From Agreia bicolorata (GTDB lineage: Bacteria > Actinomycetota > Actinomycetes > Actinomycetales > Microbacteriaceae): 64,000 nt of DNA. Below are positions 9,989 through 18,071 of this stretch, in pieces. Each line of letters starts with the position of its first letter. The stretch's first letter is position 1. The notes under the pieces were generated by a model. The model ran no database searches, was not told where the DNA came from, and saw only the letters and a program-made list of their open reading frames with translations. The translations under genes were made by a program, and so were the position numbers. The stretch covers positions 496,001-560,000 of the forward strand of contig NZ_JYFC01000002.1 in assembly GCF_000938265.1 (NCBI RefSeq), written 5' to 3'.

Positions 9989-10777
9989 CTAGACGCCCAG
10001 CGCGTTAAGAGAGTCGTCGACGATCGTGAGGCCCTCGAGGCCGGGAAGCCCGCTGATGGCGGTGTCGATCTTGCGAGCGGCCTTGCGACCGTCTTCGCCG
10101 CCCATGAGGTGGCCCATCACGTGCTTGACCTCGTTCTTCTCCATGATGCTGGAGCCGACCGGAGCCCAGAAGTTGCTCAAGGCGAAGCGGGCGAACTTCT
10201 GCGCCTTCGTGCTCTTTGCCAGACGATCGCGTGCCTGCGAGGTGTAGAACGCCACGTGGCGCGCCTCCTGCTTGGCGATGCGCTTGAGCAGCTCGGCGAG
10301 CACGGGATCTTCTTCGAGCGCGGCCATGCGGTTGTACGCGGTGATCGCCGACCACTCGTTGGCGGCGCCCCAGGCCATGTGCACAGCCACGAAGTCGGCA
10401 CCCACGACCTTGCCGATCACGGACTGCTTGATGGGGTCGAGTTTGTCGCGCCAGCCGAGCTTGAGGCGTTTGGCCTTGAGCTCGTCGAAGTCGACGACGA
10501 TGCCGTGGATGCCCAGAACGGTGGCGAGTGCCTCGCCGTGCCAGAACTCCTCGCGGTTCCACATGGTCATAAAAGCGCCCATCTCGGCCTCTTTGTGAGA
10601 GGGCGTGGTGAGCAGATCGCGGGTGTAGCAGACGGTGTGATATTCCACATCGGCCATATAACGCAGGGTGCGCAAAGAACCCTCGGGCAGAGGGTGCTCG
10701 CGGAATCGCTCGAGATCGAGATCGTCCCAGTTCACGCTGACCGAGGTGGCCGTGTATTTGTCTACGTCGAATGCCAT
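9989..10777 (-). CDS. Ferritin-like diiron protein, acyl-ACP-desaturase-like ligand set
   Basis: A 262-residue four-helix-bundle protein. All six ligands of a class II diiron site can be picked out: E45 (VEYH), E77xxH80 (EEFWH), E141 (NEW) and E171xxH174 (EARH). This E-ExxH-E-ExxH order is shared by soluble acyl-ACP desaturases, aldehyde-deformylating oxygenases and relatives. The last gene of a three-gene minus-strand operon, 14 bases after an acyl-CoA reductase/HAD fusion; a paralog lacking three ligands heads the operon. I use ATG 10777, where similarity to the paralog begins; the frame extends upstream. A desaturase or oxygenase acting on an alkyl chain fits the neighbours, but the reaction is inference. 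Confidence 0.85.
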   Translation of the reverse strand: MAFDVDKYTATSVSVNWDDLDLERFREHPLPEGSLRTLRYMADVEYHTVCYTRDLLTTPSHKEAEMGAFMTMWNREEFWHGEALATVLGIHGIVVDFDELKAKRLKLGWRDKLDPIKQSVIGKVVGADFVAVHMAWGAANEWSAITAYNRMAALEEDPVLAELLKRIAKQEARHVAFYTSQARDRLAKSTKAQKFARFALSNFWAPVGSSIMEKNEVKHVMGHLMGGEDGRKAARKIDTAISGLPGLEGLTIVDDSLNALGV

Positions 10778-10791
10778 GGTGTGGGGAGAGT

Positions 10792-13113
10792 TTACTCTCC
10801 GGTTCCCTTCGCGAATTGCGGCAGAGCGGATGCCCCGCGTGTGCCGCGTTTCCAGTTGTGGATGCTCCATCTTCTTCGGAGCGCCTCGCGAGAGAGATTG
10901 GTGTCCGGGTTGATCGCCGTTGGATTGCCGACGAGCTGTAGCCACACGAGGTCGGAGTGGCTGTCGCCGTAGCCGTACGATTTCGACAGATCCATGCCGT
11001 GCGTCTCGGCGTAGCGTCGCAGCCAGGCCGCGCGCGCCTCATCGACCAGGGGCGGCTGGGCGAGGTAGCCGGTCAGAATACCGTCGCGCTCATGCATCGA
11101 TCCGGCGACCACATCGTCGAAAAGCGCCGCGAGCGGCGAGGCCAGGATGCCGATGGATCCGGTGACAAGCACGGTGCGGTGCCCCGCGGCCCGGTGCTCC
11201 TGGATGCGCGCGATCGCCGAGGGCATCGTGTGCCGCAGCAGCGTCTCGCGGTATCCGCCAGACACGACCTTCTCGAGCCGCTTGGCGGGCATACCGCTGT
11301 AGCGCCGAAGGAACGCGCGAATGAATTCACCGCGGTCGCGGTGCTCGGCTTTGAGATAGCCGGGAAGCGATGTAAGAAGGCTCGCGACCTCGCCCGGCCA
11401 CGCAGCCTTTCGGAAGCCGGCCGAGCGCACCCAGAGGTACTGCTCGACGATGTTGGAGTCGACGACGGTGCCCTCGAAGTCGAAGACGGCGAGAACGTCG
11501 CTGCGCTTCGGGAACGCCTTCGCCACCCGTTCCGACGCGGCCGGGCGCAGCGCGAATGCCCGAGTCAGCGCCGTGATCGAGGGGAAGTGCACCTTCTGCA
11601 GGTAGTCCTCCCAGTCGATGGCGGTCACATCGAAGCCGATGTCGTCACGCAACTCGGCGGGCAGCGCGTTGTGCAGCGCACGTGTGTTGCGGTCGTCGAA
11701 GATGATCTCGGTCTGCACGTAGGCGCGATAGAGCTCCACGAAGGTGCGCAGATTCTCGAGGTCATCTTTGCGCTTCAGAGCCTTCTTCACGTGCACGCGG
11801 GTGCGTTCGGTCGAGGGCAGTCGTTCGAGGGCCCTCTCGAGCCGGGCGTTCCAGATCTCCTGGTTGTGCAGTACCCGGTCGACCTTGCGGGTTCCGGGGA
11901 AGGTCCAGTACGGAACCTCGATGTGCCCGTCGCTCTCGTGCGGCAGCGGGGTGGCCGTGAAGAACTCATTCATGTTCGTGAACATGCGGTGGATCGGCAG
12001 CGGGTTCCGGGCACCGGAGCTCACGTGGTAATACGCGGAGTCGACCTCGGCGTCGGCCGCAGCCGGGTTAGCGGCGACGGCGAGGATGACGTTGACCACG
12101 TAGTCGACGGGAATCACGTCGAGCACGGTGTCGGGCAGGGCCGGGAACTGCGTGAGGTTGCCGCGGGCGTAGGCAAGAACCAGGGGATCGGCAACCTTGA
12201 ACCCGTCGATCCAACCGGGATACGGGTGGCGCAGCGCGCTCTCGATGATGGCTGGACGCACGACCGACAGTCGGTGGCCGGCGTCGCGCCAGAGCTCTTC
12301 TGCGGCCCGCTCGGCGAACGATTTGGTGAGCGTGTAGACGTCGGTCCAGCCGAGGCTCTGGGCCCGGCTGCGCCCGTAGTCGACGAGTCGCTCGCGCACC
12401 CACTCGACGCGTCCGGTCTCTGCGGCGGTCGCCACCGCCTGCGGGCCTTCCTTGCCATGCACGGCGCGGGCATCGTTCATAAACGTGCGCAGCGTCTCGG
12501 GTTGGCGCGATGCCATCTCGACGCGCACCCGGGCATCCCGGGCGGCAGTGAGCTCTGCGCGCCAGTCGACCTCGTGCTTCAGCCGCCCCTCGGGCACGAT
12601 GCCCTTGCGCAGCCCGCCGACGTAAGCGGTCGAGACGTGCACGACGTGAGGGTCGCCGCCGGATTCGGCCAGAGCGGTGTAGAGGGCGATCGCGCCGCCG
12701 AGGTTGGTCTCGAAGGCCTGATCGATGGGCGGGTCGAACGACACGGTGGATGCGCTGTGGATCACGACGTCGAGATCGGCCGGCAGCGGGGGAACGTTGG
12801 CGAGGTCGCCCTCGATCACCCGCAGTCGCTCACGCACGGCGCGTTCGACCTCTTCTTCACCGACGCGCTCGCGCCACGGTCCGAAGACGGGCTTGCGCAG
12901 CAGGGTTCGCAGGCGGTCGTCGGCGGTGGTGCTGCCCTTGGTGCGGATGAGCAGCGAGATCGTGGTCGCCGGATGCGACGAGAGCAGCCGCTCGACGATC
13001 GCCTGACCCACGAAGCCGGTGCCGCCGGTGATGAAGACGTGGGCGTCGCCGAGATCGGAGGACGCGGTCCACGACAGCGCCTCGCTGACGGTGGTGGCCA
13101 CCGCGTCACTCAC
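10792..13113 (-). CDS. Fusion of fatty acyl-CoA reductase (SDR) and HAD-IB phosphatase-like domain
   Basis: A 773-residue two-domain protein. Residues 25-400 form an extended SDR of the thioester-reductase/fatty acyl-CoA reductase type: FITGGTGFVGQ (28-38), STAY (161-164), YTLTK (260-264, catalytic Tyr and Lys). Residues 540-773 form a HAD-IB domain: FDFEGTVVDS (544-553), VTGS (650-653), GYGDSHSD (714-721). In motif I the second acid, usually Asp, is Glu (D545, E547), which may alter phosphatase activity. The N-terminal domain could reduce acyl-CoA to the fatty alcohol needed for an ether bond. ATGA overlap with the upstream ferritin-like paralog. Product assignment from context is inference. 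Confidence 0.88.
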   Translation of the reverse strand: MSDAVATTVSEALSWTASSDLGDAHVFITGGTGFVGQAIVERLLSSHPATTISLLIRTKGSTTADDRLRTLLRKPVFGPWRERVGEEEVERAVRERLRVIEGDLANVPPLPADLDVVIHSASTVSFDPPIDQAFETNLGGAIALYTALAESGGDPHVVHVSTAYVGGLRKGIVPEGRLKHEVDWRAELTAARDARVRVEMASRQPETLRTFMNDARAVHGKEGPQAVATAAETGRVEWVRERLVDYGRSRAQSLGWTDVYTLTKSFAERAAEELWRDAGHRLSVVRPAIIESALRHPYPGWIDGFKVADPLVLAYARGNLTQFPALPDTVLDVIPVDYVVNVILAVAANPAAADAEVDSAYYHVSSGARNPLPIHRMFTNMNEFFTATPLPHESDGHIEVPYWTFPGTRKVDRVLHNQEIWNARLERALERLPSTERTRVHVKKALKRKDDLENLRTFVELYRAYVQTEIIFDDRNTRALHNALPAELRDDIGFDVTAIDWEDYLQKVHFPSITALTRAFALRPAASERVAKAFPKRSDVLAVFDFEGTVVDSNIVEQYLWVRSAGFRKAAWPGEVASLLTSLPGYLKAEHRDRGEFIRAFLRRYSGMPAKRLEKVVSGGYRETLLRHTMPSAIARIQEHRAAGHRTVLVTGSIGILASPLAALFDDVVAGSMHERDGILTGYLAQPPLVDEARAAWLRRYAETHGMDLSKSYGYGDSHSDLVWLQLVGNPTAINPDTNLSREALRRRWSIHNWKRGTRGASALPQFAKGTGE

Positions 13114-13928
13114 GATCGCAGCTTTCGGGCGACGGCGTCGCCAATCTGCGGGGTCAGGCCGGGAAGTTCTGCCACTCTGTTTCCGATCGTGGTTGCGCGC
13201 TGGAGTCCGTCGGTGCCGCCGAAGACGGTCTGTTCGAAAAAGGTTCTGTCGGTGTCGGAGCGGTCGACCGCTCCGATCGGCCAGGCCGCGTGGGCGAGTT
13301 GATTCGTCGCCTGTTTCACGGTCTTGGGAGATTCGGCGAGGCGGCGGCGGGCTTCCTCAGCGAAGAACGATTCGTGCCGGCTCTTGATGCTGCGGATCGT
13401 GTCGAGTGTCGCACCGAGCGTCGGGTGGTCGGCCAGAGCATCCAGCCGTTCGTAGGCCGTGGCCATGACCCACTCGTCGATCAAGCCCGCCGTCATATGA
13501 ACACCGGTGAGCGGCACACCCTGGCCCATGGCCAGGATGGCGCGTCGGATCGGCCCTCGGCGCTCGGCCGACTCGGAGCGGTCGGCCCTCGGCGCGCCCT
13601 CATGGCCAACTTGCGCGCCGGTGCTGCCGTTGGCGACGAGGATCTGGTCGATCGCGTCGGCGATCCAGAATTTCTCGAACGCCCAGGTGACGAGAAAGGC
13701 GGTGACTCGGGCATCTTTGTGGGTGGCGGTCACGAGAAGGTTGCGCAGCTGCTCCATCGTGGCGCTCTCGAGACGGCCGAGATAGCGAAGCAGATGCACC
13801 GCATCGGCCGAGAGCTGCGCGCCCTCGTAGCCCTCGAGTTGAAGCTCGGGTCTGAGGTTGCCGCGGGCCGTGCTGGCAAACTGTCGCACGTCGAACCGCG
13901 CTCGTGAGGTTGCATTTGTGGATGTCAT
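13110..13928 (-). CDS. Ferritin-like paralog with degenerate diiron site
   Basis: A 272-residue protein that aligns by eye along its length with the diiron protein at 9989-10777; both share an R-Y..x..E pattern, a TxxHK stretch, the FW pair and a xEW motif. Compared with the intact copy, E54 and E152 are retained, but the ExxH Glu and His are K86 and I89, and the second ExxH Glu is K182 (H185 remains). With three of six ligands gone it should not bind a normal diiron centre. It may be a structural partner of the intact copy. First gene of the minus operon; start ATG 13928 has CAGGG about seven bases upstream. Confidence 0.8.
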   Translation of the reverse strand: MTSTNATSRARFDVRQFASTARGNLRPELQLEGYEGAQLSADAVHLLRYLGRLESATMEQLRNLLVTATHKDARVTAFLVTWAFEKFWIADAIDQILVANGSTGAQVGHEGAPRADRSESAERRGPIRRAILAMGQGVPLTGVHMTAGLIDEWVMATAYERLDALADHPTLGATLDTIRSIKSRHESFFAEEARRRLAESPKTVKQATNQLAHAAWPIGAVDRSDTDRTFFEQTVFGGTDGLQRATTIGNRVAELPGLTPQIGDAVARKLRS

Positions 13929-13939
13929 GAAAGCCCTGC

Positions 13940-13949
13940 CGACCGGTCG
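13940..13949. promoter_or_regulatory. Palindrome in divergent ether-lipid promoter region
   Basis: CGACCGGTCG is a perfect 10-base palindrome in the 71-base gap between the two divergent operons, 12 bases upstream of the minus-strand start. It is a plausible operator for a regulator controlling both operons; no dedicated regulator gene lies next to it. Confidence 0.3.
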
Positions 13950-13987
13950 AAAACCCGCGTGCGTAAACGACGCCGTGAAGAGCAGAC

Positions 13988-13993
13988 TAACCT
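13988..13993 (+). promoter_or_regulatory. -10 element, predicted leaderless promoter of SDR-plsC-AGPS operon
   Basis: TAACCT six bases before ATG 14000. The bases between are CTAACCCC-like and carry no ribosome site, so the operon transcript is probably leaderless. Confidence 0.5.
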
Positions 13994-13999
13994 AACCCC

Positions 14000-14776
14000 A
14001 TGGCTGTAGCTCTCGTTACGGGAGGAACGTCTGGCATCGGTGCTGCGTTCTCCCGGTCCCTCGCTGCGCAGGGATATGACCTCGTTCTTGTCGCTCGAAG
14101 CGTTCCGCGACTGGAGGAGATGGCCGATGAAATCCGCGCGCTCGGTCGTTCCGTAGAGATTCTGCCGGCTGACTTGGCCGACCGCGCCGACGTCGCTCGG
14201 GTGGCCGAGCGACTCGAAGACCCGTCGAGGCCGATCGACATGCTGGTGAACAATGCGGGATTCGGCGTGCACACCTCTCTGATCGACGCCGATGTCTCGG
14301 CTCATGACCGGGCATTCGAGGTCATGTGCCGCGCCGTGCTCGTGCTCTCGGGTGCGGCGGCGCGGGGGATGCTGCCACGCGGCACGGGAAAGATCGTCAA
14401 CGTCTCGAGCACGGCCGGCTTCGTGACGATGGGCGCGTACTCTGCATTGAAGGCGTGGGTCACGTCGTTCACCGAGGGGCTCGCCGTCGAATTGCGCGGC
14501 ACGGGCATCGGTGTAACGGCTCTCTGCCCGGGCTGGGTTCACACCGAGTTTCATGTGCGCGCCGGAATCAAGGCGTCGAGCATTCCAAACTTCTTGTGGC
14601 TCGACGCCGAACAACTTGTCACGGCATGCTTGCGCGACGTCGACCGGGGCAGGGTAATCTCCATACCGACTGTTCGGTACCGAACCCTCATCTGGTTGGC
14701 TCGCCACGCACCGAGGAGTGCGATTCGCGCAGTCTCCGGGTCGATTTCCTCGAGTCGAAAGAAGCCGGTCACCTAG
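14000..14776 (+). CDS. Short-chain dehydrogenase/reductase, possible 1-acyl/alkyl-DHAP reductase
   Basis: A 258-residue classical SDR. The cofactor motif TGGTSGIG is at residues 7-14, NNAG at 84-87, the catalytic serine in VSSTAG (S137) and YSALK at 147-151. An Arg after the second strand (VARS, 31-34) suggests NADPH preference. The C-terminus is basic and may be membrane-facing. First gene of the plus operon: its stop TAG is immediately followed by the acyltransferase ATG. Next to an alkyl-DHAP-synthase-type enzyme and an acyltransferase, reduction of alkyl- or acyl-DHAP to the glycerol-3-phosphate form is the natural guess, though the family alone does not prove it. Confidence 0.88.
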   Translation: MAVALVTGGTSGIGAAFSRSLAAQGYDLVLVARSVPRLEEMADEIRALGRSVEILPADLADRADVARVAERLEDPSRPIDMLVNNAGFGVHTSLIDADVSAHDRAFEVMCRAVLVLSGAAARGMLPRGTGKIVNVSSTAGFVTMGAYSALKAWVTSFTEGLAVELRGTGIGVTALCPGWVHTEFHVRAGIKASSIPNFLWLDAEQLVTACLRDVDRGRVISIPTVRYRTLIWLARHAPRSAIRAVSGSISSSRKKPVT

Positions 14777-15526
14777 ATGGCTGAAGAAGAACCCGCCTCA
14801 GCAGGGCGCCCCAGCGAAATGGCCGGTGAGCGCGATCGCTTCAACTCGCCCAGCGTCGCGGCTGCCCGATTCCTGGTGCAGCGCGGGCTCTTGAAGCCCC
14901 TCATCTGGTCGCTCACCCGTGTCACGGTGATCGGCCGCGAAAAGCTCAAGGACGTGGCAGGCGGCTTCGTGGTCGTCGCAAACCACTCCAGTCATCTGGA
15001 TGCGCCGCTCATCGTCGGCTCGCTTCCCCGCCGCCTCGCGCGGTACCTGGCCACAGGGGCCGCCGCCGACTACTTCTTCGCAGTGTGGTGGAGGCGCGGT
15101 CTCACCGCACTGTTCTTCAACGCCTTCCCGGTGAAGCGCATGGAGTCGAAGGCCAAGTCGATCAGCGCCCGCTCACTGCTGTCGCGTGGAATTCCGATCC
15201 TGATCTTTCCCGAGGGAACCCGGTCGAAAGACGGCGAAGTCGGCACCTTCAAGCCCGGTGCTGCCGCGCTCGCGGCATCCTGCGACGTTCCCACCATTCC
15301 GATGGCCCTGATCGGCGCCCACGTGGCACACCCGCGAGGAGCGAACTGGCCCCGTCGGGGCCGTTACCCGGTCGGTGTGGTCTTCGGTGAACCGTTGAGG
15401 CCCGTTCCGGGGGAGACCCCGGGCCACTTCGCCGAGCGCACGAAGCAGGAGATCCTGCGCCTGCGCGACCTTCATTCGGCCACTATCCTTGGCCAGTCCC
15501 CACGATCAAGAGGAGCCCTGCAATGA
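14777..15526 (+). CDS. Lysophospholipid acyltransferase, PlsC family
   Basis: A 249-residue glycerolipid acyltransferase. The catalytic HxxxxD motif (NHSSHLD, H70 and D75) and the phosphate-binding FPEGTRS (144-150) are both present, and a third block (PVKRM, about 118-122) matches family motif II. It lacks a clear N-terminal transmembrane helix but has hydrophobic patches for peripheral membrane binding. It starts directly after the SDR stop and ends in an ATGA overlap with the flavoenzyme gene. In this operon it could acylate DHAP or a 1-alkyl-glycerol-3-phosphate. Confidence 0.9.
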   Translation: MAEEEPASAGRPSEMAGERDRFNSPSVAAARFLVQRGLLKPLIWSLTRVTVIGREKLKDVAGGFVVVANHSSHLDAPLIVGSLPRRLARYLATGAAADYFFAVWWRRGLTALFFNAFPVKRMESKAKSISARSLLSRGIPILIFPEGTRSKDGEVGTFKPGAAALAASCDVPTIPMALIGAHVAHPRGANWPRRGRYPVGVVFGEPLRPVPGETPGHFAERTKQEILRLRDLHSATILGQSPRSRGALQ

Positions 15527-17190
15527 GCGATGTCAAGCACATGAAATGGTGGGGCTGGGGCGTCGACGGCGTCGCCTTCCACCACGAGAACAAGCCGGGC
15601 TTCGCGCCCTTCGTGAAGAAGAATCTCGGACTCGACCTCAAAAAGACCAAGGGCGAACCGCCGGCATTCGCCGACATCGATGTTCCCTCCAGCCGGGCGG
15701 CAGAGTCCTTCGTTCTTCTCCTGGCCGGAATCGTCGGAGATGATCACGTCGAGACCGACGACATGTCCCGGGTCGTGCACACCTTCGGCAAGAGCATCCG
15801 CGACCTCATCCGCGTTCGAACCAGCGCGTTTCCCCGCGCCGTCGACGTCGTCGTGTACCCGGCCAACGAGGCCGAGGTTCGTCTGATCGTCGACGCGGTC
15901 GTCGCATCCGATGCCGTGGTCATTCCGTTCGGTGGTGGCAGCAATATCGCCGGCAGCCTCGAGCCCCTCGCCACCGAAGAGCGCACTGTGGTGTCGCTCG
16001 ACCTCGGCCGACTCAACCGCGTCATCGAGCTCGACGCCGATTCGAGCCTCGCGCGCATCCAGGGCGGCGCCCAGGGTCCCGACCTCGAGGCCGAGCTCAA
16101 CGCGGCCGGCTGGACCCTCGGACACTTCCCTGACAGCTTCACCCACTCCACGGTCGGCGGCTGGGTGGCGACGCGCTCGTCCGGCATGCAGAGCGACAAG
16201 TTCGGTGACATCGCCGACATCGCAAAGGGCCTGCGTGTCGTGCGCCCCGGTGGTGTGCTCGTTCTGCGCCCGCTGCCCAGCACCTCGACCGGGCCGAGTG
16301 TGCGCGAGATGATCCTCGGCAGCGAGGGGCGCCTCGGCATCATCACCGAGGTCACCGTGCAGATCCATCGCATCCCGGCCAAACGCGAGATCCTCGCCTA
16401 CCTCTACCCCACGTGGGATGCCGGACTCGCGGCCATGCGTGAGATCTCCGAGAGCGACGCCACGCCCTCGATCACCCGCGTCTCCGACGGCAACGAGACG
16501 CTGTTCTCGTTCGCCACGTCGAAGAAGAGCAAGGGCGTCTCCGCCCTCGCCACAAAAGGCCTCGGCGTCTTCCTGAAGGCAAAGGGCTGGGACACCGAGA
16601 AGATGTGCCTGTCGTTCGTCGGAAACGAGGGCGGCGAAGAGCTGGTTGCGACGAACCAGAAGATCATCGCCCGCATCGTCAAGAAGCACGGCGGCATCAC
16701 GGTGGGCAAGGGCCCCGGCGTGCTCTACGACCAGAAGAAGTTCGACACGCCCTACATCCGTGACTGGTTCCTCGACTGGGGCGGCTCGGCCGACGTGTCA
16801 GAGACGGCCGCGCCCTGGGCGAAGCTGCCCGAGCTCTACCGCAACGTGATCGCCAGCGCCAACCACGCGTTCGACGAGATCGGTGTCAAGGGCTGGATCA
16901 TGGCCCACCTCTCGCACTCGTACCACTCGGGCGCGTGCCTGTACTTCACGTTCGCGTACCTCGACGAGGGTGACGCCATCGCGCACTACGACGTGGTCAA
17001 GCAGGCCATCCAGCAGGCTTTCATCGACGCGGGCGGAACGCTGTCGCACCACCACGGAGTGGGCCTCGAGCACGCCCCGTGGATGGAGCAGGACATCTCG
17101 ACCGAGGGCGTCAAGATCATGCGTGGCCTCTTCGGAGCTGTCGACCCCGGTCGCCACTTCAACCCGGGCAAGGTTCTTCTCGACGAATGA
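15523..17190 (+). CDS. FAD-binding oxidase of the alkyldihydroxyacetonephosphate synthase type
   Basis: A 555-residue flavoprotein of the VAO/PCMH superfamily, close to AGPS. The N-terminal KWWGWG (8-13) parallels the eukaryotic AGPS 'KWNGWG' start. FAD-binding stretches include PFGGGSNI (135-142), HFPDSFTHSTVGGWVATRSS (201-220) and GSEGRLGIITEVTV (266-279). The C-terminal domain has HSYHSGACLYFTFA (465-478) and the histidine triplet SHHHGVG (508-514), required for ether-bond formation in AGPS. AGPS exchanges the acyl chain of acyl-DHAP for a fatty alcohol. ATGA overlaps at both ends couple it to PlsC and EamA genes. Main alternative: a glycolate/lactate oxidase subunit, which lacks the KWxGWG start. 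Confidence 0.9.
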   Translation: MSDVKHMKWWGWGVDGVAFHHENKPGFAPFVKKNLGLDLKKTKGEPPAFADIDVPSSRAAESFVLLLAGIVGDDHVETDDMSRVVHTFGKSIRDLIRVRTSAFPRAVDVVVYPANEAEVRLIVDAVVASDAVVIPFGGGSNIAGSLEPLATEERTVVSLDLGRLNRVIELDADSSLARIQGGAQGPDLEAELNAAGWTLGHFPDSFTHSTVGGWVATRSSGMQSDKFGDIADIAKGLRVVRPGGVLVLRPLPSTSTGPSVREMILGSEGRLGIITEVTVQIHRIPAKREILAYLYPTWDAGLAAMREISESDATPSITRVSDGNETLFSFATSKKSKGVSALATKGLGVFLKAKGWDTEKMCLSFVGNEGGEELVATNQKIIARIVKKHGGITVGKGPGVLYDQKKFDTPYIRDWFLDWGGSADVSETAAPWAKLPELYRNVIASANHAFDEIGVKGWIMAHLSHSYHSGACLYFTFAYLDEGDAIAHYDVVKQAIQQAFIDAGGTLSHHHGVGLEHAPWMEQDISTEGVKIMRGLFGAVDPGRHFNPGKVLLDE

Positions 17191-18071
17191 GCCGCGCCCG
17201 TCTCGGCGGGCCAGTCGGTGCGGCGGGTCTCGTCGTCGCCGGGCTGGCGTGCCAGGAGGTCGGCGCAGCCTTCGCCGTGCTGCTGTTCCCGAGCGTCGGC
17301 GCTCTCGGTATGGTGGCGCTGCGCCTCACGTTCTCCGCGCTCATCCTGCTCGCCATCGCCCGCCCGTCCGTGCGCGGCCGCAGCCGCGGCGACTGGATGA
17401 CGGTGGTGCTGTTCGGCGCGGCCCTCGCGGTGATGAACGGGTTGTTCTACGAGGCGCTGGCGCGCATCCCGCTCGGGGCGGCCGTGACCATCGAGGTTCT
17501 GGGGCCGCTCGTGCTCTCGGTGGCCACGAGCCGACGCGCATCCAGCTGGCTCTGGGCGGTGCTCGCCTTCGTCGGCGTCTTTCTGCTCGGGCAGGGCAGC
17601 TTCGGCGAGCTCGACCCCGTGGGCGTGCTGTTCGCCGCGGGAGCCGGTGCGACCTGGGCCGGCTACATTCTGCTGTCGTCGCGCACGGGCAGCCGATTCG
17701 CGCGCCTCGACGGCCTCGCCCTGGCCATGGCGATCGGGGCCGTTCTCACGCTGCCGCTGGGGCTCGCCGCAGCCGGCCCCGTGATCGTGCGTCCGGACAT
17801 CCTGCTTCTGGGCGCTGCCGTCGCCGTGCTGTCATCGACGATTCCTTACGCCCTCGAGCTGTTCGCGCTGCGTCGCATCCCCTCGTCGACCTTCGCCATT
17901 CTCATGAGCCTGGCGCCGGCGATCGCGGCCCTCGCCGGGGTGGTGCTGCTGGCCCAGCACATCACGCTCGTCGGAGTGCTCGCCATCGCGCTCGTGGTGA
18001 CCGCCAGCATCGGAGCGGTGCGCAGCGCGGGGCCGGGAGCTACTCCCGTCGCTCGTGCCGACGTGGTCTGA
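17187..18071 (+). CDS. EamA/DMT-family transporter
   Basis: A 294-residue membrane protein with about ten hydrophobic helices in two homologous halves, characteristic of the drug/metabolite (EamA, RhaT-like) superfamily. The start ATG overlaps the stop of the flavoenzyme gene, so it belongs to the same operon. Typical markers are the glycine-rich first helix and the PSSTFAILMSLAPAIAALAG stretch in the second half. Substrate unknown; a role in the lipid pathway is possible only by context. Its 3' end overlaps the convergent DUF4166 pseudogene by 32 bases. Confidence 0.88.
   Translation: MSRARLGGPVGAAGLVVAGLACQEVGAAFAVLLFPSVGALGMVALRLTFSALILLAIARPSVRGRSRGDWMTVVLFGAALAVMNGLFYEALARIPLGAAVTIEVLGPLVLSVATSRRASSWLWAVLAFVGVFLLGQGSFGELDPVGVLFAAGAGATWAGYILLSSRTGSRFARLDGLALAMAIGAVLTLPLGLAAAGPVIVRPDILLLGAAVAVLSSTIPYALELFALRRIPSSTFAILMSLAPAIAALAGVVLLAQHITLVGVLAIALVVTASIGAVRSAGPGATPVARADVV

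Follow-up and report, generated by a model that had tools for sequence, protein, structure and literature searches.

The window, a 64,000-nucleotide stretch of an Agreia genome, holds at 9989-17190 a six-gene unit that, judged from its sequence, very probably makes ether-linked membrane lipids. The unit consists of two divergent operons, with FER1, FAR-HAD and FER2 facing SDR, PlsC and AGPS (Table 1), and forms a nearly complete candidate pathway in which the FER1/FER2 pair is named for the missing step, the conversion of alkyl ethers to the vinyl ethers of plasmalogens. This last step is plausible, and the statement as a whole, an ether-lipid pathway with a vinyl-ether step performed by FER1 and FER2, is put forward tentatively, at somewhat below an even chance. 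FER1 and FER2 are candidates for the enzyme that would form plasmalogens in air-breathing actinobacteria; were this true, the oxygen-dependent making of vinyl ethers would have a second kind of enzyme, a soluble one.

Layout and distribution of the unit

Table 1. Features of the six-gene unit, in window coordinates.
Feature	Position	Strand	Remark
FER1, 262-aa ferritin-like protein	9989..10777	-	Complete diiron ligand set; proposed plasmanyl desaturase
FAR-HAD, fatty acyl-CoA reductase + HAD-IB phosphatase-like domain	10792..13113	-	PF07993, PF12710; proposed fatty alcohol supplier
FER2, 272-aa FER1 homologue, diiron site lost	13110..13928	-	Proposed non-catalytic FER1 partner
Intergenic region, 71 bases, presumed divergent promoters	13929..13999	.	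Gene coordinates
SDR oxidoreductase, proposed acyl/alkyl-DHAP reductase	14000..14776	+	PF00106
PlsC-type acyltransferase, proposed DHAP or sn-2 acyltransferase	14777..15526	+	PF01553
AGPS, alkyldihydroxyacetonephosphate synthase-like flavoenzyme, proposed ether-bond formation	15523..17190	+	phmmer to solved AGPS/ADPS

By gene coordinates, FER1 and FAR-HAD lie 14 bases apart and FAR-HAD overlaps FER2 by 4 bases; on the facing arm SDR and PlsC have no gap between them and PlsC overlaps AGPS by 4 bases, so these genes are tightly coupled. The start of FER1 was placed at the ATG common to its relatives (the longest frame would begin at 10945). The genes and motifs named in the original prediction (KWWGWG, SHHHGVG and NHSSHLD) are all present in the sequence. 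The two operons and their six genes stand as predicted, however, the span had been drawn to 18071, and the stretch beyond 17190 does not belong: the EamA/RhtA-like gene located there was matched next to the unit at no more than 5 of 80 loci, each from Agreia, and the unit therefore ends at 17190.

A genome survey bore out the expected co-occurrence, with all six genes around 65 of the 80 named FER1 loci. For three of these (L155, L197 and L199) FER2 was counted from a second FER1-type match, and at L142, L187 and L194 the FER2 mark in the tally is a cross-match with FER1, the locus table containing no FER2 match. Among 150 genomes of the family, FER1 is present in 38 of the 40 with the AGPS clade compared with 6 of the 110 without it (Fisher p 9e-27, which overstates the association since the genomes are related). 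Taken with the 65 complete loci, this co-occurrence is more than chance. The FER1 count of 44 is what remained of 46 genomes matched at 1e-5 once G045 (33.6 bits) and G113 (matched through its FER2 only) were dropped. AGPS was matched in 66 genomes at 1e-20, and 40 of them (>500 bits, including G135, where it is in two pieces) were counted as the clade; the remaining 26 matches, at <340 bits, were not.

The FER2-FER1 pair also occurs at 11 of the 80 named loci (in Agromyces, Leifsonia, Glaciibacter and Humibacter) whose fetched flanks show neither FAR nor AGPS. A whole-genome AGPS search (E 1e-20), which took in 19 of 20 chosen genomes with L144 left out, detected none in Leifsonia flava or Humibacter sp. 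RRB41, and two Agromyces genomes gave matches of only 75 and 84 bits. The 150-genome sample contains five pair-only genomes, and in none of these is this FAR present; one of them (G142) has a distant AGPS (314 bits, 37%), so that "without AGPS" there means without the clade. The pair can thus serve without this AGPS. On the FER1 tree, however, pair-only loci are nested within unit-bearing loci, with 2 changes needed, and linkage to the ether genes therefore looks ancestral in this clade. One genome, which is 85% complete (G101), holds the four ether genes with FER1 and FER2 not found. Jiangella ureilytica (Jiangellaceae) carries AGPS, PlsC, SDR and FAR as a single cluster on one contig and, on another contig, a FER1 that is 71% identical to that of the window. 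In other actinobacterial families FER1-like proteins occur without the unit's neighbours, and no shared lipid gene was recognised among the unannotated, BLAST-clustered neighbours of pair-only and distant FER1-like loci.

Enzymes of the ether-lipid pathway

The flavoenzyme is, on sequence evidence, a close relative of the solved alkyl-DHAP synthases and is predicted to make alkyl-DHAP. Its phmmer matches are led by ADPS (2uuu; E 9.5e-117, 394 bits, residues 25-551) and peroxisomal AGPS (4bby; E 7e-82, 279 bits), followed by the best glycolate oxidase (9qgz) at 80 bits. The catalytic residues of 4bby, which we take to be D303, T309, R419, R515, Y578 and H615-617, were counted across on the phmmer alignment to the window AGPS. 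Seven of the positions (D204, R319, R413, Y474 and H509-511) are invariant in 61/61 relatives, and at T210 a T stands in 59 relatives and an S in 2. Were the flavoenzyme a 2-hydroxyacid oxidase, or some other oxidase from that superfamily, the unit would not be an ether-lipid pathway; in favour of this reading, its FAD_binding_4 and FAD-oxidase_C domains are common to GlcD-type enzymes. We give this very little credence and have rejected the 2-hydroxyacid oxidase assignment because the AGPS scores are far higher than that of glycolate oxidase over almost the whole length, the AGPS residues are kept and the GlcD family model scores 123.8 bits, below its cut-off of 567.9.

The remaining enzymes are conserved alongside AGPS, which upholds the prediction of an ether-lipid pathway. 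FAR-HAD contains a NAD_binding_4 domain (PF07993, E 2.2e-45) and a HAD domain (PF12710, E 1.2e-32), with a C-terminal Sterile domain (PF03015, E 2.1e-8) at 34.7 bits, slightly below the cut-off of 35.4; in the PDB it matches the fatty acyl-CoA reductase 7eoz (E 6.7e-47). Y260 and K264 of the YxxxK motif are invariant in all 66 relatives, and HAD motif I reads DxE in 66/66. The SDR (PF00106, E 1.7e-45) keeps Y147 and K151 in 67/67, and its top NCBIfam model is mycolate reductase at 165.6 bits, under the cut-off of 380. PlsC (PF01553, E 1.4e-22) retains NHSSHLD in 59/59 except for S71, which is found in 57.

We accordingly read the unit as very probably a DHAP-type pathway for ether lipids, like that of animals and myxobacteria and operating aerobically, in which we infer the substrate of every step. 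FAR would convert acyl-CoA to fatty alcohol, DHAP would be acylated by either PlsC or a housekeeping acyltransferase, and AGPS would form alkyl-DHAP by putting the alcohol in place of the acyl group. The keto group could then be reduced by the SDR before sn-2 acylation. Finally, the soluble, O2-dependent diiron protein FER1, with metal-less FER2, may introduce a C1'-C2' double bond into the alkyl chain, which would yield a vinyl ether.

FER1, FER2 and the vinyl-ether step

Two ferritin-like proteins had been predicted, and both are present, however, only FER1 has a complete diiron site. Its ligands, E45, E77xxH80, E141 and E171xxH174, follow the E, ExxH, E, ExxH pattern of soluble acyl-ACP desaturases and all six are kept in 81/81 alignment rows. 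Of 20 homologues from across the phylum, 17 span all six positions (L250 reaches none of them, and the first is not covered in L246 and L247), and in these the ligands are again complete (17/17). The acyl-ACP desaturase family PF03405 is weakly matched by all 25 members scanned (best E 5e-5), with the window FER1 at 21.9 bits falling slightly below the gathering score of 22.7. The top Foldseek matches are the acyl-ACP desaturases 7t63 (E 1.1e-4) and 4v0j, with large rmsd, and sequence similarity to 1za0 is weak (E 0.0049). The top PDB sequence match of the FER1 profile, the designed helix bundle 9u78 (E 7e-8), consists of repeated short helices and was taken as meaningless. FER1 therefore appears to be a distant relative of the acyl-ACP desaturases and a plausible vinyl-ether-forming (plasmanyl) desaturase.

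FER2 is a clear homologue of FER1 (hhalign probability 100, E 5.5e-51, 29% identity), in which K86, I89 and K182 occupy the positions that E77, H80 and E171 have in FER1. Three ligand columns are lost in 78/78 relatives, which rules out FER2 as a second active diiron enzyme, and as the FER1 site is complete the metal enzyme can only be FER1. The AF2 model of FER2 has a pLDDT of 89.4, and its fold matches are all weak (R2lox, E 4e-3); Pfam scans of 24 members gave no match in any, and a sequence search of solved structures found no credible relative. FER2 looks like an inactive partner of FER1, a point that is new here, and we infer that the two form a complex.

Dimethylacetals, named in the original prediction for some cold-living Microbacteriaceae, are indeed in print for four Subtercola species, Agreia (the genus of the window) and Frigoribacterium faeni (PMC5945732, PMC12823222), in the parts of those reports drawn on here. 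Among the matches from the open-licence literature, no further paper with such data for Microbacteriaceae came up. For Agreia the account is at genus level, with iso-C15:0 DMA at most 4% (PMC5945732). Carriers of the unit include Subtercola lobariae (L197) as well as five records of Agreia and two of F. faeni. It is also present in Frondihabitans (2 loci), said in the same portion of PMC5945732 to be without dimethylacetals, and in F. endophyticum (L188, a strain other than the one measured). The latter is, by the reference-strain list, with F. salinisoli one of the two other Frigoribacterium species compared, for which the section consulted says that dimethylacetals had not been reported (PMC12823222).

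CarF/TMEM189, which the original prediction did not see here, was not found: PF10520 had 0 matches in the Agreia genome and in the 150 family genomes, with the control silent in both, and the same search gives matches in 12/296 phylum genomes. DUF2229 (PF09989), presumably the domain held by PlsA, was matched 0 times in the Agreia genome and in 1/150 family genomes (G062, which is without any of the unit's genes searched), with the control matched in 4/14. With 0/150 and 1/150, CarF and PlsA were rejected as sources of the dimethylacetals, which a vinyl ether made by FER1/FER2 would explain without CarF or PlsA/PlsR. That the pair is a new soluble vinyl-ether-forming enzyme is a guarded proposal, rated rather under even. 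Judged by title and abstract start, no paper among the matches listed from the open-licence literature links ferritin-like proteins to plasmalogens.

The plasmalogen step foreseen for a diiron protein remains plausible, however, it is weakened by the existence of the pair without ether-lipid genes. Acyl-ACP desaturase-class enzymes work on carrier-bound chains and not on membrane lipids, which counts against a vinyl-ether step by FER1, as do the PF03405 score under its cut-off, the large rmsd of the fold matches, the unit's presence in Frondihabitans and F. endophyticum, the ether genes without FER1/FER2 in G101 and the FER1-like proteins without ether neighbours. It is a real possibility, if again short of probable, that the unit makes alkyl ethers while FER1/FER2 desaturates or hydroxylates ACP- or CoA-bound acyl chains, feeding FAR or acting independently. 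This would suit the nearest folds of FER1 and its PF03405 matches, the persistence of the pair where the genome has neither this AGPS nor this FAR, the FER1-like proteins of other families and the 2-hydroxy C14:0 reported for S. lobariae, F. faeni and Frondihabitans, all carriers of the unit (PMC5945732, PMC12823222, in the portions used). Against it stand the nesting of pair-only loci inside unit loci and, in the tables of PMC5945732 available to us, the saturated branched main fatty acids of Subtercola, with 2-hydroxy C14:0 listed in one of four species.

Two further explanations leave vinyl ether formation by FER1 aside. CarF is a membrane histidine-rich enzyme, and a membrane histidine-box desaturase (PF00487), its gene lying elsewhere in the genome, could form the vinyl ether, with FER1/FER2 doing something else; the Agreia genome has one match (G000:C17:262953-263732), and at least one was found in 13/13 unit-bearing genomes tested, including S. 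lobariae, F. faeni, Frondihabitans and F. endophyticum. As this gene lies outside the unit and is equally present in the two latter taxa, reported without dimethylacetals, we consider it unlikely. Alternatively, FAR may give a fatty aldehyde and FER1 may be an aldehyde-deformylating or related oxygenase, the ferritin-like part making hydrocarbons or removing the aldehyde. The structure 6d9f, which has aldehyde-deformylating activity, is among the Foldseek matches of FER1 (E 3.6e-3), however, it ranks only 35th, beneath many acyl-ACP desaturases, AGPS, PlsC and SDR would be left without a role, and this FAR is missing from the five pair-only sample genomes, making such a function most improbable.

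Comparison with known systems

The animal peroxisomal pathway for ether lipids and plasmalogens comprises FAR1, GNPAT, AGPS, PexRAP and PEDS1/TMEM189, as given in the part of PMC9131029 drawn on here. Agreia has a candidate for each early step, namely an AGPS homologue with the presumed catalytic residues, a FAR, an acyltransferase and an SDR-type reductase. It differs in its single bacterial unit, the FAR-HAD fusion, the PlsC-type acyltransferase and, in place of a PEDS1/CarF homologue, of which none was found in Agreia, two ferritin-like proteins. In the same part of that source, the obligate aerobe Myxococcus xanthus (MXAN_1674-1676, elbA-E) likewise has genes for AGPS, FAR domains, an acyltransferase and an NAD-dependent reductase, and the HAD protein ElbB shares an operon with a FAR-containing protein; there, however, CarF carries out the desaturation, ElbD joins several domains, ACS and ACP among them, in one fusion, and a ferritin-like protein goes unmentioned for its ether-lipid genes (PMC9131029). 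The anaerobic PlsA/PlsR system, as described in the portion of PMC9702350 used, shares the end product, vinyl ether lipids, and includes Gram-positive bacteria, but reduces diacyl lipids directly without DHAP.

Soluble acyl-ACP desaturases (PF03405; castor stearoyl-ACP desaturase, M. tuberculosis DesA2) have the same helical diiron-type fold and E, ExxH, E, ExxH ligands as FER1, however, sequence similarity is weak and FER1 is accompanied by a paralogue without three of the ligands. Beside CarF/PEDS1 and PlsA/PlsR, FER1/FER2 might then, and we would put this more cautiously still, represent a third kind: a soluble diiron enzyme, in class an acyl-ACP desaturase, which, with its conserved metal-less paralogue, makes plasmalogens for aerobic actinobacteria.

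Layout and core enzymes of the unit

The six genes lie in two divergent operons, as originally predicted, with 71 bases separating them, and adjacent reading frames within the unit overlap or almost abut.

Genes of the unit in window positions
Gene	Positions	Strand	Transcription order in minus operon
FER2	13110-13928	minus	first
FAR-HAD	10792-13113	minus	second
FER1	9989-10777	minus	last
SDR	14000-14776	plus	
PlsC	14777-15526	plus	
AGPS	15523-17190	plus	

This is very probably an alkyl ether-lipid unit. The match of AGPS to the alkyl-DHAP synthase 2uuu spans residues 25-551 (E 9.5e-117, 394 bits), while the peroxisomal AGPS 4bby scores 279 bits against 80 bits for the best other flavoenzyme. 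The catalytic residues of 4bby, which we take to be Asp303, Thr309, Arg419, Arg515, Tyr578, and His615-617, were transferred to the window AGPS by counting along the pairwise alignment. With Thr309 set aside, they correspond to D204, R319, R413, Y474, and H509-511, all invariant in 61/61 relatives; T210, the equivalent of Thr309, is T in 59 of these and S in 2. FAR matches the solved relative 7eoz, named as a fatty acyl-CoA reductase (E 6.7e-47), and its Y260 and K264 are invariant (66/66), as is the replacement of the usual HAD motif, DxD, by DxE at residues 545-549 of the fused HAD domain (66/66). PlsC could act on DHAP or at the sn-2 position; a further enzyme would be required for one of the two acylations. 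The FAR-FER1 gap is longer in Subtercola, Labedella, and two sampled genomes (G007, G090). In S. lobariae (L197:6596-8859) it accommodates a gene for a lactate-racemase N-terminal (PF09861) protein and one for a further PlsC-like acyltransferase, the latter possibly the acyltransferase that the short version of the unit lacks; the gap is similarly long at L155, L199, and L112-L114.

The ferritin-like pair

FER1 is a paralogue of FER2, the two aligning in hhalign with probability 100 and 29% identity. Of the two ferritin-like proteins originally predicted, FER1 has the full diiron ligand set, with E45, E77xxH80, E141, and E171xxH174 kept in 81/81 rows, whereas FER2 lacks three of these ligands in all 78 rows, having K or R at E77, I, L, V, or M at H80, and K, R, or T at E171. 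It retains E45 in 78 rows, E141 in 59, and H174 in 61. Since this loss is consistent, extending to the distant FER2-like proteins L110 and L111 (four and five of six ligands gone), FER2 looks from its sequence like a conserved pseudoenzyme. We infer that it may form a complex with FER1. FER1-like proteins of other actinobacterial families have intact ligands in 17/17 cases covering all six positions; those fetched with their surroundings (L232-L251) are mostly single genes with no ether genes nearby.

AlphaFold models are of good quality, with pLDDT values of 85.8 for FER1 (below 50 at residues 105-117) and 89.4 for FER2. The top Foldseek matches of FER1 are acyl-ACP desaturases (7t63, E 1.1e-4; 4v0j, query TM ~0.62), shortly followed by R2-like oxidases, and as the matches mostly have rmsd 7-10, kinship with acyl-ACP desaturases is distant. 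The top match of FER2 is R2lox (E 4e-3).

Conservation of the unit and dimethylacetal records

A single scan of named genomes with a FER1 alignment found 192 relatives, and the analysis kept the best 80. All six genes are present in 65 of these 80 loci, including loci of Agreia, Glaciihabitans, Galbitalea, Herbiconiux, Frigoribacterium, Frondihabitans, Salinibacterium, Lacisediminihabitans, Labedella, Subtercola, and Pseudolysinimonas. In a few of them the retrieved sequence stops within the AGPS match (e.g., L185) or the match is split in two pieces (L133, L180). Two of the 80 (L157, L187) are interrupted by contig ends, and 13 are without the four ether genes across the flanks fetched. In 11 of these 13, FER2 adjoins FER1 (Agromyces, Leifsonia, Glaciibacter, Humibacter); the other two, L142 and L194 (Jiangella ureilytica), have FER1 alone, L142 coming from a metagenome bin that also contains the complete locus L141.

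A co-occurrence survey of 150 family genomes found the AGPS clade in 40, FAR in 41, and FER1 in 44. AGPS-clade genomes have FAR in 40/40 and FER1 in 38/40, and the Fisher value for FER1 with the AGPS clade (9e-27) shows, given the kinship of the genomes, simply that the association is strong. In one exception (G113) the contig stops inside FAR; the other (G101, locus L109; genome 85% complete) has AGPS, PlsC, SDR, and FAR, and neither FER1 nor FER2 was found. FER1 occurs without the AGPS clade in six of the 150 genomes. Five (G025, G057, G079, G102, G142) have the pair and no FAR match, G142 also having a distant AGPS (314 bits). The sixth, G107, has FAR and FER1; its FER2 lies 1.4 kb from the contig start, and AGPS may therefore be cut off.

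Dimethylacetals (DMAs), mentioned in the original prediction for some cold-living Microbacteriaceae, are on record in two reports, with iso-C16:0 DMA at 6.9-17% in S. vilae, S. frigoramans, S. boreus, and S. lobariae and low iso-C15:0 DMA in Agreia (PMC5945732), and anteiso-15:0 aldehyde/DMA in strain D8 and Frigoribacterium faeni (PMC12823222). Frondihabitans is reported to lack DMAs (PMC5945732), and none are on record for the two other Frigoribacterium species compared, F. endophyticum and F. salinisoli (PMC12823222). Of the taxa with recorded DMAs, S. lobariae (L197), Agreia (five records), and Frigoribacterium faeni (L176, L179) carry the unit. Frondihabitans (L172, L180) and F. endophyticum (L188) have it as well, and its presence alone is thus no predictor of recorded DMAs. 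The AGPS of Frondihabitans sucicola may be broken, as its match spreads over two reading frames (L180:2315-3963); L172, the other Frondihabitans locus, was not flagged incomplete.

Assigning the vinyl-ether step

That FER1/FER2 carry out the vinyl-ether-forming step is a tentative assignment, with the chances somewhat against it. In its favor, FER1 lies within the unit in 65 of the 80 loci (best 80 of 192). In J. ureilytica, a single contig (L260) carries AGPS, PlsC, SDR, and FAR as an uninterrupted run, with FER1 on a different contig, so both have been retained despite separation; no FER2 was found in this genome, and FER1 may therefore work alone. On a FER1 tree (92 rows, quick method, many inner branches poorly supported), pair-only loci are nested among unit loci, needing 2 changes, which suggests that the unit is ancestral in the clade and the pair-only state derived. 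Were the assignment true, G101 would be expected to make saturated ethers only. Against it, no AGPS was matched at 1e-20 in Leifsonia flava and Humibacter sp. RRB41, which both retain the pair, and there the pair must serve otherwise. Of ten phylum genomes with FER1-like proteins, six have an AGPS match at 1e-20, above 200 bits in only three of them, and within the stretches fetched none of these matches adjoins the FER1-like gene. The pair may instead be an acyl-chain desaturase or hydroxylase, a reading about as likely as the vinyl-ether one.

A rival candidate for the vinyl-ether step, which also counts against FER1/FER2, is a PF00487 membrane fatty-acid desaturase, present in 13/13 genomes tested, with a single match in the window's genome (L268, G000:C17:262953-263732). 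PF09989, which we take to be the PlsA domain, was found in 1/150 family genomes. CarF (PF10520), which the original prediction had not seen in the window, was found neither in the window's genome nor in the 150 family genomes, in searches whose control was silent in both cases, but the identical search was positive in 12/296 phylum genomes, the PF10520-domain proteins belonging to two actinobacterial families (L252-L255 and eight more genomes). According to PMC9131029, myxobacteria are an exception within the aerobes, and CarF is restricted to very few bacteria.

Among titles and abstract openings of the open-licence literature, we found no publication linking ferritin-like proteins or Microbacteriaceae with plasmalogens. 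Overall, what is new here is a new arrangement of a known pathway, together with a conserved diiron enzyme/pseudoenzyme pair of putative function.
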